64,000 bases of DNA, taken from IMG/VR virus record IMGVR_UViG_3300032313_000500, positions 54,471 through 118,470 of that record; one strand, written 5' to 3'. Shown piece after piece: positions 787-58,207 of this stretch (within the stretch, counting starts at the first letter, position 1; the number at the start of each line of letters is the position of its first letter). A model generated the notes under the pieces. It made no database searches, had not been told where the DNA came from, and saw nothing but the letters and a program-made list of their open reading frames with translations. The stretch comes from a virus. The position numbers were made by a program, and so were the translations under genes.

Positions 787-2145
787 ATGTCAGACCAAGC
801 AAGACTTACAGAATTGCAATCCGCCCTTCGCGCCAAGATGGCCGATAACAAGGCAATTGCAGACTCATTCCGCATTGAAGAAGGAACCGTTGTTGTCAAC
901 GCTCAGCAAAAGAGCGCATTTGATAAGAACATGACCGACATCAAGGAAATCAAGGGACTCATTGAGGGCCTTGAGGCAATGAACACCGTTGACCAATGGG
1001 GCTCACAGGCTCCAGCAGAATCAGTTGCTGCTGCTGCAGCCGCTGGCTACTCTCTCAAGAGCGTCTACGGCTCACAGAGCATCGGTGACCTCTTCCTCGC
1101 TTCACCAGAGTTCAAGACCCTTTTGGGTGGCAAGAATGGCGCAAACATGCCTTCCCCATTCCAACTCGGAGCATCACTCACCACTCATGGCGCATTCAGC
1201 GTTAAGGACGTTTACTCGGCACTTCCATCAGGCACATTGGGCCGTGGTGCAGATGCTCAGTTCGGTTCAATCCAGCGTGACCCAATGGTCATGTCACCAC
1301 AGCGTGTAAAGCGCGTTCGTGACTTGTTCCCAAGCCGCACCACAACTGCTGCAGTTATTGAATACTTCCGTATGCTCGGTTTCACCGCAACAGGCGGCGG
1401 AGTCAACAATGCAGGAACAGTTGCTGAGCGTAACGCCGGAAACACAAACTTTGCTGCCAAGCCACAGTCCTCAATGGTATTTGAAGGCCACCAGGCCCCA
1501 GTACGTACCATTGCTCACTGGGAAGCAGCACACCGTAACGTCCTCGCAGACGAGCCACAGTTGCGTTCAATCATTGACAACGAATTGATGTACGGTCTCC
1601 GTCTTCAAGAAGATGCTCAAATCCTCAACGGTGATGGCTCTGGCGAAAACCTTACTGGTGTTCTTCAGACTTCCGGTATCCAGAACTACTCATGGTCCAG
1701 CGGTTTGTACTCAGCAACTGCAGGAATGTCAGACACAAAGGCAGACGCAATCCGTCGCGCCGCTACTCTGTCGTTCTTGGCTTACTACGAGCCATCTGGT
1801 GTCGTTCTTCACCCGAACGATTGGGAAGACATTGAGTTGACCAAGGATGGCAATGGCCAGTACCTCGTTGCAGTTTCGGTTGCAATGGGTGGCGAGCCAA
1901 AGGTATGGCGTTTGCCGGTCGTTGAGACTCCTGCAATCCCAGAAGGCACCGCACTTGTCGGCGCATTCGGTACGGGCGCACAGTTGTATGACCGTGAGCA
2001 GGCTTCAATCCGCATCTCAGAGCAGCACTCGGACTTCTTCGTTCGCAACGCAATCGTTGTACTCGCAGAACAGCGCCTCGCCCTTGCGGTTAAGCGCCCA
2101 GAGTCATTCGTCAAAGTTACATTTGACAACGCTCCAGCAGCCTAA
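787..2145 (+). CDS. phage major capsid protein, HK97 fold
   Basis: This 452-residue protein builds the icosahedral head shell. Residues 1-60 are a helical, coiled-coil-like segment resembling the delta (scaffold) region of HK97-type capsid proteins; the body from about residue 95 onward has the usual order of an HK97 coat protein, with an E-loop-like region, a P-domain helix near the segment NELMYGLRLQEDAQILNGDG, and a C-terminal A-domain ending in ALAVKRPESFVKVTF. AGGAG lies about 8 bases before the ATG. A strong terminator follows directly. No separate protease gene is visible in the window, so it must lie upstream or be absent. Confidence 0.92.
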   Translation: MSDQARLTELQSALRAKMADNKAIADSFRIEEGTVVVNAQQKSAFDKNMTDIKEIKGLIEGLEAMNTVDQWGSQAPAESVAAAAAAGYSLKSVYGSQSIGDLFLASPEFKTLLGGKNGANMPSPFQLGASLTTHGAFSVKDVYSALPSGTLGRGADAQFGSIQRDPMVMSPQRVKRVRDLFPSRTTTAAVIEYFRMLGFTATGGGVNNAGTVAERNAGNTNFAAKPQSSMVFEGHQAPVRTIAHWEAAHRNVLADEPQLRSIIDNELMYGLRLQEDAQILNGDGSGENLTGVLQTSGIQNYSWSSGLYSATAGMSDTKADAIRRAATLSFLAYYEPSGVVLHPNDWEDIELTKDGNGQYLVAVSVAMGGEPKVWRLPVVETPAIPEGTALVGAFGTGAQLYDREQASIRISEQHSDFFVRNAIVVLAEQRLALAVKRPESFVKVTFDNAPAA

Positions 2146-5371: not shown

Positions 5372-7414
5372 TTACTGGTTGTCTTTAATAAATTTTATTT
5401 CGCATGAATCCGTTGTGCAGTAAGACTCCCCGATTGCATCGGCAGCCATTCCTGCATATACGCCCGTGAAGTCAATAGGAAATAATGATTTACCTGCCTC
5501 TTCATAGACGCTCTGCTCTATCTGTGTGTACGGCATTTGCGGATAGGTGAAGTTTCCTTGGGGCAAGAACGACACAGTCTTTAATTGACCGTCATACATG
5601 TGGAGTACGGTGCCGATGTGTTCTTTTTCTTTCTCTGCGTCAAAGGAAATCGTAACTGACACCGAGTTGTCCGACCAGTAGCGTTGTGCAACTGCTGCTA
5701 GTGACATCTTTTCAAAGATTGTTACGTCCTTTTCGGAGCGACGTGCGTCTGACTTGATTGGGAAGAACACAACAGAGGTCGTCTCAGGCGATTCAGAGGC
5801 AGGCTCAACTCTGTAGTTGGCCATCTTGAACAGCGGAAGCATTGGGTCGTCGTTAGAGAACCGGATTGCTCTGTCAAAATACTCACCACCTGGAGTCCAA
5901 TGAACCCCAGGAGACTCGCCGGCGAGAATTGAAACAGTTCCCGAAGGCTTTACTGTTGTCATCTTGATTGATTCACGAATTCCAAGCCACTCAGAGTAAG
6001 AAACGTCATAATTCTTTACTGTGTTGTACCCAGTGTCCATCCATTCACGAAGAACTGGCATTCCTACACGGTCAGCGAAGTTAGCAACACCGGACATTGA
6101 AGTACCGATGCGACGATTGCGTTGCATGATTGCGTTTGTCTCTTCCCAGTGGGTAGGAAGAAGCGTTACGGTCTTTGCGTAGAGATATGCAAACTTCAAG
6201 GTTCGCTTGTAGTCATCTAATGAATCGTGACGATTGAGGTATGTCTCCACGAGAGTACAGCACTCATATGACTCAAGAGATTGTTCTGCACATGGGTTAT
6301 ATCCAGCAACACGCCAGTCTTTGTTGTTTGCAGGGTCTGCAAGACGGCCGTATTTACGAGACATATCAAGCCAGATGACTCCTGGCTCTCCATTGAGAGC
6401 GATTCCGTCAACAATCTTGGAAAGGTCTTTACCTACAGAAGTTTCTACAGAGTTGTTGGACATCCAACCCCAACCGAGAGATTCTGGGTCGTACGAGTTG
6501 CGCGCAGGAAACACTGACGAGTTCTTTAGGTTAAGGAACTCATCGTCATCCAAACTGCCAATTAGTAATTCTGCAGAACGACGTACGTTTCCAGAAACAA
6601 CACAAACACCAATCATGTTTCCGATGTCTGCGATATCAACTTTTGTAACTAATTGACCATTGCGGTTTTTAAACATTTTTCTAATGTAGTTGTGCAGTCG
6701 CTCTAACGAAGCGTGACCAGCAGCCGTACCACCAAAAGTTTTAATAGGTGTTCCTGCAGGGCGAATTAGTGAATAATCAAAGACGATTGGTGCCTGGTCC
6801 TGCTTTAAGTAAGAGTTAATCAACATACTCACAGATGTAACCCAACCTTCTCGGCTGTCTTCAATTACTTCAGTAACTACTGGTTTTGTTGGCTCATAGA
6901 TAGTGAAATCTTTTTCTGCACCCTTGTTGTCAAATCCAACACCGACACCAAGCATTGATGCTTCCATAAGAAACGCAAAAGGCTTTGCAGGGTTGTTCTT
7001 TGTCATTTCAGATGTTGATACAAATGCACAGTTCTGTAATGCAGCAGAGTTTTTCTGAACATTGACTAACGGAGTCCCCATAACCCACAAGCCACGACCA
7101 GGTGGAGTCCACTTCAGGTTAAACAAACGGTCAAACGCTTCTTTTGCAGATGCTTGTGCTTTGGAGTCATTCCAGGGTAGACGATTTGTTTTGCAGTGGT
7201 CTTTCTGCAGGGAGTACATACCGTTGATTACGCGTTCACAAACATCTGACCATGTTTCTTTTGTTCCGTCTTCTTTTAAGCGCGAATAAGTACGCAAAAA
7301 AGTTATTTCTCCTACAGAGTTACCACCGGCATCAACATAACCAAATGGTGCTTTTCTAGTTCTGTACGAACTAATAAAATCTTCTGATAAACGGAATGTG
7401 AAAAATGAAGACAC
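5372..7414 (-). CDS. nrdJ: adenosylcobalamin-dependent class II ribonucleotide reductase
   Basis: This 680-residue enzyme converts ribonucleotides to deoxyribonucleotides for phage DNA synthesis and does not need oxygen. Length and motifs match the monomeric B12-dependent triphosphate reductase. An active-site Cys lies in LQNCAFVST (about residue 128), the radical-site loop reads NPCAEQSLESYECC (about 373-386), and the C-terminal redox pair is CTTDSC (about 664-669). The start is a GTG preceded by AGAGGA. It needs host-made or salvaged B12, and a MoxR/VWA pair elsewhere in the window could conceivably relate to cobalt. Confidence 0.95.
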   Translation of the reverse strand: MSSFFTFRLSEDFISSYRTRKAPFGYVDAGGNSVGEITFLRTYSRLKEDGTKETWSDVCERVINGMYSLQKDHCKTNRLPWNDSKAQASAKEAFDRLFNLKWTPPGRGLWVMGTPLVNVQKNSAALQNCAFVSTSEMTKNNPAKPFAFLMEASMLGVGVGFDNKGAEKDFTIYEPTKPVVTEVIEDSREGWVTSVSMLINSYLKQDQAPIVFDYSLIRPAGTPIKTFGGTAAGHASLERLHNYIRKMFKNRNGQLVTKVDIADIGNMIGVCVVSGNVRRSAELLIGSLDDDEFLNLKNSSVFPARNSYDPESLGWGWMSNNSVETSVGKDLSKIVDGIALNGEPGVIWLDMSRKYGRLADPANNKDWRVAGYNPCAEQSLESYECCTLVETYLNRHDSLDDYKRTLKFAYLYAKTVTLLPTHWEETNAIMQRNRRIGTSMSGVANFADRVGMPVLREWMDTGYNTVKNYDVSYSEWLGIRESIKMTTVKPSGTVSILAGESPGVHWTPGGEYFDRAIRFSNDDPMLPLFKMANYRVEPASESPETTSVVFFPIKSDARRSEKDVTIFEKMSLAAVAQRYWSDNSVSVTISFDAEKEKEHIGTVLHMYDGQLKTVSFLPQGNFTYPQMPYTQIEQSVYEEAGKSLFPIDFTGVYAGMAADAIGESYCTTDSCEIKFIKDNQ

Positions 7415-49731: not shown

Positions 49732-49760
49732 TTGTGATTAGGGCTTACTACCCATAACAT
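49732..49760 (+). promoter_or_regulatory. repeated promoter, plus copy 5
   Basis: -35 TTGTGA, spacer TTAGGGCTTACTACCCA, -10 TAACAT; 30-base leader with AAAGGAG, driving the MoxR/VWA pair. Confidence 0.76.
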
Positions 49761-49792
49761 GAAGTCATAACCAATTGCAAAGGAGCAATAAA

Positions 49793-50512
49793 ATGGAAAA
49801 AGAAATAACACTACCCGAGTGCTGGCAAACACTCAAAGACTGCATGGATTCAGGGATTGACCGAGTCATCCTCTTTGGACCTGCAGGAACTGGAAAGACC
49901 TTTGCTGGTCTCACCTTTGGAAACGTAGGCGCTGGCGCACACCGTTTGGTATGCACAGAAGATATGACTTCAATGGATGTGACTGGAGCGTTCATGCCTG
50001 ACGGAAACGGCAGATTCTCATGGGTCGCTGGTGCTGGTCTCAAGGCTTGGGAAGGTAACGGACTCAACGGTGGTCGCCTCATCGTGGATGAGATTGACAA
50101 GGCGTCGGGAGATGTGTTCGCACTTCTGCTTGCGATGCTTGACTCACCTGAATCTGCGACTTGGGAACATCCCGAGACTGGTCGTATTCATCGTCCGAAA
50201 GACGGATTCTCTGCTGTCATGACCACGAACATTGAGAACATGGAAGAGTTGCCAATGGCTCTCGCTGACCGATTCCCTGTTCGCATCCGAATCAACGCTC
50301 CTCACCCGAGTGCGCTTGAGAAGTTGTCGTACGACTTGCGTGAATACGCAGTCCGTATGTGTGATGCAGGCAAGCGCCGAATCTCACTGCGTACTTTCTA
50401 CGCATTTGACAAACTGCGTAAGCAACTAGGTGATGAGAAGTCTGCAAAGATTATCTTTGGTGAACGAGCAACTTCTGTACTTGACGCCATTGCGATTGAC
50501 AAGGTTCACTAA
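49793..50512 (+). CDS. MoxR/CobS-type AAA ATPase
   Basis: A 239-residue AAA+ ATPase: Walker A FGPAGTGKTFAG (about residues 28-39), Walker B RLIVDEIDK (about 97-105), sensor AVMTTNIENME (about 142-152) and the PMALADRFPVRI helix (about 155-166). It lacks a long N-terminal domain. Its stop overlaps the start of the VWA gene (TAATG), so they are co-made. The pair resembles MoxR-VWA or CobS-CobT machines that insert metals or remodel proteins. Confidence 0.82.
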   Translation: MEKEITLPECWQTLKDCMDSGIDRVILFGPAGTGKTFAGLTFGNVGAGAHRLVCTEDMTSMDVTGAFMPDGNGRFSWVAGAGLKAWEGNGLNGGRLIVDEIDKASGDVFALLLAMLDSPESATWEHPETGRIHRPKDGFSAVMTTNIENMEELPMALADRFPVRIRINAPHPSALEKLSYDLREYAVRMCDAGKRRISLRTFYAFDKLRKQLGDEKSAKIIFGERATSVLDAIAIDKVH

Positions 50513-51969
50513 TGAAGCACATTGCCGAACCTGAATGGCTTGGTCGTAAGGATGCCGAACACGGTGCTTGGCAAGTTGAAGACTGCGAACCACGCCGTGG
50601 CATCCCTGCTACTTCTATCGTGGAACGCAAGATGCTTGCGCCTGCACACGACACTGAACAAGCGAGAGTAATCCGTGCGCACGAGATGATGCATGCAAAA
50701 GTTTCTCCTGCTGGAGAATGGGAGCAATGGCAAAACAGAAAAATTGCCAGCATCCAAGGAATGATTGCGTGTGAAGAATTGCGTGTGAACCTGCTCTGCG
50801 ATAGGGCTGGATTTGATGTGAAGTCTCACCTCTCTGACGGTGGAGAAACTGCAGACGGAGAAAGACTTGCCTGCACCAACGACTGGAAGAGTGCTGTGTA
50901 CATGGCTGTAGCCACTGCTGGTACTGCGAGTAACAAGTTGTACCTGAACGGTATCCGTCGTCATAATCGCATTTGGGGTTCTGCACTTGCAGATATCTCA
51001 AAGCGAGCAGTCAAAGAAATGAGCAAGGCTGGTCGGGGATTATCAAGTACCGAAGTACACACTCGCACTGGTCTCGCACCATTTGGATTCATCTACACCG
51101 AGAAACTTGCTGAATGGGTTGACCGTCTCGCAGGCTTGCCTGCTCCTGATGAAGAAGAAGAAAGTGAATCTCAAGATTCCTCTATGGAAGTTGAGAACGA
51201 AGACAACAAGAACGGCAAGCGTGAACACTCAAACATCGGAAAAGAAAAAGTCAAAGAAACTGAGTTTCGTGAAAAACTGAAAACAATTACTCCCGACAAA
51301 ATGGACGGTAACGTCCCTTATTGGGGTGAACTTATGATTGACAAGTTGCCACTGCCGATTGTCGCCAAGGGAAACTTAGGCAAGAAGAAGACAGCCTCTA
51401 ATGTTGGTCGGTCACCACGCCGTATCCACCGATACATGACAGACCCACAAAAACGAATCTTTGATAATAAGAGGCGTGGAATGGGTGGAGTCGTATGCGT
51501 TGATGCATCGGGTTCAATGTCTCTGACACAAGATGATGTTCGCAGGATTCTTGAAGCAAGTCCGGGGGCTACCGTTATCGCTTACTCTGATATCCGTGAT
51601 GGTCATCCGAACGCTTGGATTCTCGCTGACAAGGGTCGTATGGTTGATGAAATGCCCGAGATGGGTCAAGGCAACGGTGTTGACTTCCCTGCTCTTGAGT
51701 GGGCAGTGAAGCGTCGCCAGCACTCAACTGCTCCTGTCATTTGGATGACAGACGGTGGAGTCTGTGGACCGAACCAAGGATTCTCTGAAACTCTTGCGAA
51801 CCAATGCACTGCGTTCTGTTTGGAAAAGAAAGTTCACCTGACCGAAGACGCCGAAGCAACTATCGCTCTTCTTCATGCGCTCTCAAAAGGAATCGCAATA
51901 CCGAAGTCACGGTTCCCTTACATGTTGAAGCATGCTTGGGAATCACGAGGTGGGAAACTTCCCGACTGA
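50512..51969 (+). CDS. VWA-domain protein with N-terminal HExxH, partner of the ATPase
   Basis: A 485-residue protein. The N-terminal domain has RAHEMMHAKVSP (about residues 58-69), an HExxH metal motif. An acidic linker follows (DEEEESESQDSSMEVENEDN, about 213-232). The C-terminal VWA domain has the MIDAS motif CVDASGSMS (about 330-338), NGVDFPALEW and IWMTDGG. This is the domain order of CobT-like and DUF2201-like partners of MoxR ATPases. A metal-chelatase or protein-remodelling role is likely; the target is unknown. Confidence 0.8.
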   Translation: MKHIAEPEWLGRKDAEHGAWQVEDCEPRRGIPATSIVERKMLAPAHDTEQARVIRAHEMMHAKVSPAGEWEQWQNRKIASIQGMIACEELRVNLLCDRAGFDVKSHLSDGGETADGERLACTNDWKSAVYMAVATAGTASNKLYLNGIRRHNRIWGSALADISKRAVKEMSKAGRGLSSTEVHTRTGLAPFGFIYTEKLAEWVDRLAGLPAPDEEEESESQDSSMEVENEDNKNGKREHSNIGKEKVKETEFREKLKTITPDKMDGNVPYWGELMIDKLPLPIVAKGNLGKKKTASNVGRSPRRIHRYMTDPQKRIFDNKRRGMGGVVCVDASGSMSLTQDDVRRILEASPGATVIAYSDIRDGHPNAWILADKGRMVDEMPEMGQGNGVDFPALEWAVKRRQHSTAPVIWMTDGGVCGPNQGFSETLANQCTAFCLEKKVHLTEDAEATIALLHALSKGIAIPKSRFPYMLKHAWESRGGKLPD

Positions 51970-51977
51970 CCGTCACG

Positions 51978-52012
51978 CCCCACAACCACTTGCTCCTTTG
52001 TTGGTTGTGGGG
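51978..52012 (+). terminator. terminator after the VWA gene
   Basis: CCCCACAACCA pairs with TGGTTGTGGGG, followed by TTGTGG, which is also the -35 of the next promoter. Confidence 0.65.
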
Positions 52013-55281: not shown

Positions 55282-55499
55282 TTTGAAAAATGTTTCATAC
55301 CTGCGTTGCGGTTTTCCTTTCTTACTGCTATGGTGTACTTCACAACAGATGGCGCGCCCTCCTCATCGTAAAAAAGCATTCCTGAAAAACGGAAACCTTT
55401 TTGTGATGCAGAAAAATAAAAATTAATTTCGTAAAGGTTCCCCCGAACCCCCTCCAAAATAGGGTTGGTCTGTAGATATGTCAAATTCATTTCAAACAT
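55194..55499 (-). CDS. possible gene of 101 residues
   Basis: A frame with a plausible strand pair (NLYEINFYFSASQKGFRFSG, APSVVKYTIAVRK). It starts near the divergent gene at 55547 and overlaps the other minus frame here. Either may be real; both may not. The 55138-55546 stretch otherwise has no plus-strand gene. Confidence 0.3.
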   Translation of the reverse strand: MFEMNLTYLQTNPILEGVRGNLYEINFYFSASQKGFRFSGMLFYDEEGAPSVVKYTIAVRKENRNAGMKHFSKCAGPANMIKLNHQRRVSSFRSFGSPGAL

Positions 55500-55510
55500 T
55501 GTTTAACGAC

Positions 55511-55540
55511 TTGACTATCGGTGGTGGAAAGGATTATGTT
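55511..55540 (+). promoter_or_regulatory. promoter with the stoperator-like repeat in its spacer
   Basis: -35 TTGACT (55511-55516), 18-base spacer containing TCGGTGGTGGAAAG (repeat copy 11, 55518-55531), -10 TATGTT (55535-55540), AATACC, ATG 55547. A protein on the repeat would block RNA polymerase. Confidence 0.65.
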
Positions 55541-55546
55541 AATACC

Positions 55547-55921
55547 ATGTCAGAGTCTTCTAAACGAGGTAGACCAGTGTCAGCGCAGAAACTCTCTCGT
55601 TCTAAAAAGGCCACGTCAGCCAGTGACGTAGAGATACAGCAAGTATGGGATTACTGGGTATCCAAGATGCGCGCTACTTCAAAGCGCAAGCCAGTCCTTG
55701 ACTCCACCCGACGTCAGTTCATAGGCGCGGCAATATTTGATTATGAACTCCAGGGATGTCTAGACGCTATAGACGGATGCGCGATGTCTGAGTTTCATAT
55801 GGGGAGGAATAAGATGAACAAGCGGTATGATTCCATTGAGTTGATTTTCAGAGACGCAGAACATATTGAGAAGTTCCACGACATTCTGGATAAATCCACA
55901 GAAGAGAAGGAAGACTGGTGA
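55547..55921 (+). CDS. phage replication-type protein, basic N-terminus
   Basis: A 124-residue protein with a basic tail (SKRGRPVSAQKLSRSKKATS) followed by QQVWDYWVSKMRATSKRKPV and RRQFIGAAIFDYELQGCLDA, a pattern seen in phage proteins placed next to replication initiators. It is leaderless and coupled to the helicase-loader-like gene by an overlap (GTGAC). Confidence 0.6.
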   Translation: MSESSKRGRPVSAQKLSRSKKATSASDVEIQQVWDYWVSKMRATSKRKPVLDSTRRQFIGAAIFDYELQGCLDAIDGCAMSEFHMGRNKMNKRYDSIELIFRDAEHIEKFHDILDKSTEEKEDW

Positions 55922-56397
55922 CTAAGCAAGAACTAGAAGAACTGGTTACCCAGGTATTTGCACTGTACAACCAAACTCTTTTAGATATAGACCGTAAGAC
56001 AATCTTGCGCGCTTGGTACGAGATGCTGGAAGACCTCCCATTCGCCGGCTGTAAAGTCTCGCTCCTTGACTACGCTGCAGTCAGTCCGTTCATGCCTAAG
56101 CCTGGAGACTTACGAAGGGCGTACATTAATTCCCAAATCAAAGTAGGGGATGCGCCTACACCCCTAGTTGCTTGGGCCACTTTGATTGGGCAAATAAAAT
56201 TGGCCAATTCTGGTTTGCCAATTAATCAGGGGCTTCACCCGTGCATATCCAAAGTGGTTGACATGCTCGGGGAGACCGCCCATCAGTTGCATAGCACTAC
56301 TGACCAGATTCAATTCCTCAAGACCTACGAACAAGTCGTAGCCGATTATCAACAACAAAAATTCAAAATTTCCGAAAAGGGGACGCATTCGTTGTGA
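55918..56397 (+). CDS. helicase-loader-like replication protein
   Basis: A 159-residue protein with YNQTLLDIDRKTILRAWYEM, LLDYAAVSPFMPKPGDLRRA and a C-terminal helix. This layout matches phage loader proteins and loader-inhibitors that put the replicative helicase on DNA. GTG start overlaps the previous stop. The helicase gene itself is on the minus strand at 23483-25216. Confidence 0.62.
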   Translation: MTKQELEELVTQVFALYNQTLLDIDRKTILRAWYEMLEDLPFAGCKVSLLDYAAVSPFMPKPGDLRRAYINSQIKVGDAPTPLVAWATLIGQIKLANSGLPINQGLHPCISKVVDMLGETAHQLHSTTDQIQFLKTYEQVVADYQQQKFKISEKGTHSL

Positions 56398-57535: not shown

Positions 57536-58150
57536 TCACTTGTTCTTCTCCGATTCTTGTACGTAAGTGTTAAATGGGCTACCCGTATAAGGGTCAAACT
57601 TGGCAGAAACCTGCAGTGCTTTAAGTAATGCGGCTTTTGCTTGGGCCGGCGATAACTTCTTTCCGGCGACCAATACCTGTAGAGCCCCTAGTGCGTAAGG
57701 TGCTCCAGTACCAGTCGCATATAGACCAGACGCTTCTGGTGTCCATGAGTAATCGCTCTCAACGATATAAATCGTAGAATTGATGACAACCATTATTGAC
57801 GAATCCTGTTCAGCAATAGTGTTGTTGTTATTATTCCCAGCCGAATACCCGTGGGTTTCAAAACAAGACCTTAGTCCTGGGATGAACTTGGTCGTCATAA
57901 AGGAGTCTAGTCTCTTCCCCTTTAGCCCTATAGTAGGAGCAGGAGGCTGGAAGGCATGGTGAAGAAGATTTATGGCCCTCATGTCGCCCGCAGCGCCTAG
58001 GAGGTATTTGCCGTTTATGGCAATCTTGGCTGAACCAGACCCAAGTGTAGATATCTGGTACGCATTTCCAGAGTCGTCAAGGGAGGATATTCTTGTATCA
58101 GCAGCGACGACGACATATCCGTCGCCCTGTATCCCTGCAATTGTCGTCAT
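57536..58150 (-). CDS. proteasome-beta/HslV-like Ntn peptidase
   Basis: A 204-residue protein starting MTTIAGIQGDGYVVVAADTR. Removal of Met would leave Thr1, the catalytic residue of the proteasome beta and HslV family; the Asp of AADTR and the Lys of GSAKIAING fit the catalytic set, and ATGTGAPYALGALQVLV fits the C-terminal helix. It may degrade host or phage proteins. ATG 58150 is chosen because it puts Thr next to Met. No ATPase partner is adjacent. Confidence 0.78.
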   Translation of the reverse strand: MTTIAGIQGDGYVVVAADTRISSLDDSGNAYQISTLGSGSAKIAINGKYLLGAAGDMRAINLLHHAFQPPAPTIGLKGKRLDSFMTTKFIPGLRSCFETHGYSAGNNNNNTIAEQDSSIMVVINSTIYIVESDYSWTPEASGLYATGTGAPYALGALQVLVAGKKLSPAQAKAALLKALQVSAKFDPYTGSPFNTYVQESEKNK

Positions 58151-58207
58151 TTTGTACACTCTCCACAGATAGTTGTGTACTAAATGTGTCTTATTTACGA
58201 CTAACTG

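Follow-up and report, generated by a model that had tools for sequence, protein, structure and literature searches.

A MoxR-type ATPase and its zincin-like/VWA partner in a freshwater tailed phage and in Acidimicrobiia: a candidate protein-processing pair with a possible link to DNA replication and repair

Pairs of genes encoding a MoxR-type ATPase and a VWA protein are widely annotated in phages and plasmids as CobS/CobT and are read as boosting the supply of B12. The CobST pair requires CobN as its catalytic subunit. Related viral pairs, including a cyanophage cobS with a ‘peptidase’, have been reported as CobST (PMC8651126). A different role, in virion assembly, has been proposed for a pair composed of MoxR and a metallopeptidase-vWA protein in group 2.2 jumbo phages (PMC7824862).

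The pair described here comes from an uncultured tailed-phage record of freshwater origin. The window, that is the whole stretch of 64,000 nucleotides analysed, covers positions 54471-118470 of this 118,470-base virus record, and its features are collected in Table 1. The initial annotation recognised a MoxR-type ATPase followed by a VWA protein with an HExxH at 49793-51969; the coordinates are exact and the motifs are present. The overlap of stop and start that it noted can be read in the sequence, where the TAA of the ATPase gene (50510-50512) shares one base with the ATG of the partner, whose own stop codon occupies 51967-51969. Its repeated promoter was also borne out, as a related pattern, TACTACNCATAANATGAA with up to 3 mismatches, gave 21 matches against 0.42 expected. 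The pair is probably co-transcribed, and the promoter may be strong. About 25 copies of this phage promoter (by-eye consensus GGTTGTTTTTACCCCTTACTACCCATAGAATGAAGGTATG) are scattered on both strands between 30500 and 52050 of the window; many of those on the minus strand have an ATG 6-8 nt past the -10 box, and leaderless mRNAs are predicted for these copies because of this spacing. The inverted repeat behind the operon is terminator-like, without a clear T run. Elsewhere the window encodes, besides the major capsid gene, a primase/helicase-like gene and an SNF2 helicase. The B12-dependent ribonucleotide reductase (RNR) named in the initial annotation was confirmed by its Pfam matches, but it lies 42 kb from the pair.

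Table 1. Coordinates of the features discussed in the text (positions of the window unless a bacterial locus is given)
Feature	Position	Strand	Basis or remark
Major capsid gene	787-2145		
Class II (B12-dependent) RNR	5372-7414	-	PF17975 and PF21995
Predicted sigma-70-type promoter, TTGTGA, 17-nt spacer, TAACAT	49732..49760	+	One copy of the phage-wide repeated motif
Ribosome-binding site AAAGGAG	49779..49785	+	7 nt 5' of the ATG; sequence reading
MoxR-clade AAA+ ATPase, 239 aa	49793..50512	+	Start ATG 49793; PF07728 6.6e-12; invariant motor residues
Zincin-like and VWA protein, 485 aa	50512..51969	+	phrog_33218 (unknown function) 9e-48; invariant residues
Perfect 11-bp inverted repeat CCCCACAACCA...TGGTTGTGGGG, 3' of the operon	51978..52012	+	Sequence reading
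Replication-initiation O-like protein	55478..55921	+	phrog_16167 1.9e-9
Helicase-loader-like protein	55918..56397	+	phrog_2289 2.5e-8
HslV/proteasome-subunit-like protein	57536-58159	-	phrog_1040, PF00227
Clamp-fold protein with a C-terminal TY-Chap-like part (bacterial)	L098:11408-12640		Homologues in L097, L099, L101-L104, L106

The ATPase possesses Walker A (GPAGTGKT) and Walker B (IVDEID) motifs and reaches 46 bits against PF07728 (AAA_5-type), for which the cut-off is 22. Its conserved residues are G29, G34, K35, T36, D99, E100, N146 (sensor-1-like) and R160 (arginine-finger-like), and the Walker A/B motifs, N146 and R160 are invariant in 50 distinct ATPase relatives. The partner contains HEMMH (57-61), EELR (88-91), DASGSM (331-336) and TDGG (413-416). 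Among 55 distinct viral partners H57, E58, H61, E88, E89, R91, D331, S333, S335 and D414 do not vary, and for this reason the pair cannot be regarded as a product of chance. The first IMG/VR scans brought 6 loci with the VWA protein as query and 80 with the ATPase; both reading frames were found in all 87 first-round viral loci, with coordinates that show their adjacency.

In the AlphaFold model of the partner (pLDDT 81) three short strands are followed by two consecutive helices, of which the first (49-64) bears the HExxH and the second (81-98) the EELR. The model thus has the zincin features, an HExxH and a third ligand in the following helix (H57, E58, H61, E88/E89), and the helix arrangement would fit a minimal gluzincin; judging from these motifs, the partner may bind zinc and act as a peptidase. 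A fold search with the whole model against the PDB gave no match at E 1e-3 or better and no solved zincin. The VWA part showed a weak PDB match to BatB (probability 0.97, E 0.016) and better matches to viral VWA models. Its MIDAS has the DxSxS and Asp invariant, but the canonical Thr is Val390, and Pfam VWA_2 was matched in just 1 of 43 members (E 0.045). Membership in the DUF2201 metallopeptidase-VWA family was rejected, as the N-terminal domain of that family (PF13203) gave no match to the partner up to E 10.

The family is not confined to viruses. A scan of GTDB genomes returned 70 loci, nearly all with both genes together, and among them are about 60 chromosomal homologous pairs, mostly from Acidimicrobiia, which are new here; at least 90% conservation of the zincin residues was noted among the bacterial homologues. 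One homologue lies past position 1.06 Mb of its contig and is chromosomal on that ground. Five loci of the scan (L092, L093, L094 and L100, with 48-50% identity, and L105) were binned with archaeal, gammaproteobacterial, planctomycete and other genomes; since the pair has phage neighbour genes in them, these contigs probably derive from phages and entered the reference genomes through misbinning. Two bacterial lineages can be distinguished. In loci of the Acidimicrobiaceae type the genes for LysM, NrdR, PIG-L and DinB follow downstream on the same strand in all 43 loci with at least 3.5 kb of downstream sequence, an SOS box with the pattern CGAACN4GTTCG stands in the interval between VWA and LysM in 48 of 53, and at 10 loci the adjacent upstream gene is lexA, which is encoded on the opposite strand, while a LexA box precedes MoxR. 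The second lineage, from bins of freshwater actinobacteria (8 loci; at a guess, Ilumatobacteraceae), has a conserved gene of about 410 codons immediately downstream. Predicted secondary structure of its product suggested a clamp, and Foldseek gave 468 matches at E 1e-3 or better (best 3e-11), the best 50 of which are all sliding clamps; the protein is modelled with moderate confidence (pLDDT 70) as a beta sliding clamp, without a Pfam clamp match. Locus L095, where the downstream gene is different, was left out of the clamp alignment, and no homologue of this clamp-like family was found among the open reading frames of the window or of the viruses. In the trees the viral clade stands next to the second bacterial lineage and the Acidimicrobiaceae-type clade is separate.

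The initial annotation pointed to a resemblance to CobS/CobT and MoxR/VWA systems, which stands, and left room for cobalt or B12 handling, which is largely refuted. In its strongest form this reading makes the two proteins CobST-like accessory subunits that work with host CobN and raise B12 for the phage class II RNR. It draws on the resemblance itself, on the proposal that viral cobST hijacks host CobN (PMC8651126) and on the class II RNR present in 20 of 21 large viral records, these records being related phages; nevertheless we consider it very improbable. The CobT families PF06213 and PF11775, with which the partner was to be compared, gave no match to it up to E 10, whereas Sinorhizobium CobT, the positive control, matched them with 324 and 373 bits. 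CobN was found in none of the 21 viral records, and no match to it reached the family cut-off in any of the 38 bacterial genomes carrying the pair (two had sub-threshold fragments); these genomes are mostly metagenome bins, so that a single absence means little and the uniform absence more. Among 247 genomes sampled from the class, the pair was present in 14 and CobN in 19, and among the matches listed no genome had both; about one shared genome was expected by chance, so zero is consistent with the other counts and weak alone. Moreover, the family retains HExxH, and four phages whose ATPases are related encode a class I RNR; two of the four are cyanophages in which the ATPase has an HExxH/VWA neighbour. 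Membership among the cobaltochelatases was rejected on account of the unmatched CobT families and the missing co-occurrence with CobN.

In the tree of ATPases the window ATPase is grouped with the chromosomal Acidimicrobiia homologues (support 100/99), apart from CobS, but the split from CobS has support of 89/72 with long deep branches, and the link to CobS and the cyanophage ATPases rests on long branches. When aligned by eye, HDARVHATMSP...EQARVEAIG of Sinorhizobium CobT faces HEMMHAKVSP...CEELRVN of the phage, and the zincin module seems to have a degenerate relative in cellular CobT, a relationship for which the profile comparison falls short of proof: the partner profile gave no convincing match in the N-domain to Sinorhizobium CobT, to CobT-like proteins of phage-plasmids or to Phendrix gp101. 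Plasmid CobT records were found with an approximate CobT C-terminal bait, and conclusions use the retrieved sequences alone. In an Acinetobacter plasmid ‘CobT’ (L253:1690-3612) QEVAK replaces HExxH in the matching region, which indicates loss of the motif in some CobT-like proteins of plasmids. The broader role in protein activation, the other option of the initial annotation, fits better than cobalt, and the genome context directs it to DNA replication and repair.

In the phages this context is formed by the O-like gene and the helicase-loader-like gene, found about 5 kb downstream in 27 and 26, respectively, of the 27 viral loci whose downstream flank reaches 5.5 kb or more. The pair lies far from the capsid gene. 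More distant MoxR/HExxH-VWA pairs are located between gp46 and gp45/gp44 in cyanophages and before dnaE in two phage-plasmids, though the partner shows weak homology to theirs, with a best E of 3.5e-4 for an alignment that covers the HExxH region. Other actinophages give a different picture: around the relative in Gordonia phage Phendrix, genes for MazG, a methyltransferase and WhiB were noted, and around that in Microbacterium phage Zooman rIIA/rIIB and nucleotide enzymes. Phendrix gp101 (L089:6552-8822), annotated ‘AAA-ATPase’, has HETGH...EELR and DVSG near the MoxR gp103 and is likely a misannotated zincin/VWA partner. In Pseudoalteromonas phage vB_Psh_XG4 (L245:2974-5216) the VWA and the zincin are separate reading frames, VWA first, beside a MoxR-like one. 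The HslV-like gene is situated about 5.6 kb after the pair in the window, and 7 of the 27 viral loci with long flanks contain a homologue. A search of 13 viral records recognised no DnaN clamp, and the idea of a phage DnaN clamp as the partner was dropped on this basis.

Two other roles have to be weighed against these neighbourhoods. As a chaperone and protease of virion assembly, the pair would remodel and cleave structural proteins during particle maturation. In its favour are the same architecture described for group 2.2 jumbo phages and a precedent, the MoxR-vWA pair of the Acidianus two-tailed virus (PMC7824862). We hold it to be unlikely, because the pair sits with replication-initiation genes, far from the capsid gene, and because bacterial chromosomes carry the family as well, there with no virion genes nearby. 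Host takeover or counter-defence, where a host repressor, repair or defence protein would be unfolded and cleaved early, agrees with the accessory or early-type region with its repeated promoters and with the service of MoxR-vWA pairs in conflict systems (PMC7159879); it appears distinctly improbable, as the very stable presence and adjacency in phages and chromosomes are unlike a variable counter-defence gene, and the third component of conflict systems (VMAP, iSTAND) was not seen adjoining the pair.

Our own reading, held tentatively and with slightly less than even confidence, is that of an AAA+-powered zincin/VWA machine which remodels or processes proteins in the service of DNA replication or repair. 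A MoxR-clade AAA+ motor, presumably assembled into a ring, would bind a dedicated partner in which a minimal zincin-like domain is joined to VWA. Other MoxR/VWA pairs provide the analogy for its action: the metal-site face of the VWA domain would recognise the target, the ring would spend ATP on pulling or remodelling it, and the segment thereby exposed would be left for the attached zincin to process or grip. Because of the genome context, the target may be a replication or repair component, such as the replisome, a sliding clamp or a damage-response protein, and the phage copy would serve phage DNA replication. In favour of this are the invariant zincin residues, unlike the HDARVH of Sinorhizobium CobT, the joint occurrence of the two genes in viral and nearly all chromosomal loci, and the set of neighbourhoods: phage initiator and loader, bacterial SOS locus, clamp-like gene, gp46-gp45/gp44 and dnaE. 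Against it, these neighbourhoods represent a small number of independent events, perhaps a single insertion per clade, and genes can be adjacent without a shared function; those in Phendrix and Zooman are off theme, DnaN went unrecognised in the 13 phage records, and the cyanophage and plasmid homology is weak. A narrower version, a replisome-linked AAA+ metalloprotease or clamp remodeller of freshwater tailed phages and of Acidimicrobiia, there with the LexA/SOS locus or the clamp-like gene, in which some ‘CobS/CobT’ pairs of phages and plasmids may share a functional class other than B12 synthesis, is a doubtful though possible extension.

The jumbo-phage pair, compared by description, has likewise two genes and a vWA partner with an N-terminal metallopeptidase domain; it differs in the role proposed for it, virion assembly, from the family analysed here, with its replication context and its chromosomal lineages at an SOS locus or a clamp-like gene. 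The viral CobS/CobT of cyanophages P-HM2 and S-SSM7 also combine a MoxR-type ATPase with an adjacent HExxH and VWA protein, but their gene order is reversed, the partner has 740-750 aa instead of 485, the ATPase is 28% identical to that of the phage here, the similarity of partner profiles is weak, and their RNR is of class I. Cellular CobS/CobT shares the AAA+ and VWA composition and, by eye, an N-terminal region resembling the zincin helices; it differs by HDARVH in place of HExxH, by its PF06213/PF11775 matches and by working with CobN, not detected above cut-off in the 38 pair-bearing bacterial genomes. Comparison with RavA-ViaA, also suggested at the outset, brought no match to RavA LARA/accessory or ViaA domains in Pfam or NCBIfam, and the ATPase here has just 239 aa. 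The nearest solved ATPase sequences are Midasin, NorQ and CbbQ, all motors of the MoxR/midasin clade; NorQ/CbbQ-type genes also pair with VWA genes, with different targets, and to our knowledge no zincin domain has been reported in the partners of these three. For the family of phages and Acidimicrobiia, with its retained peptidase active-site motif, genomes in which CobN was not detected and bacterial SOS locus, the data favour the peptidase reading. If it is true, a number of genes now regarded as auxiliary metabolic genes may instead encode protein-processing machines linked to DNA replication, and through the bacterial copies a MoxR system acting in DNA repair would become accessible to experiment.
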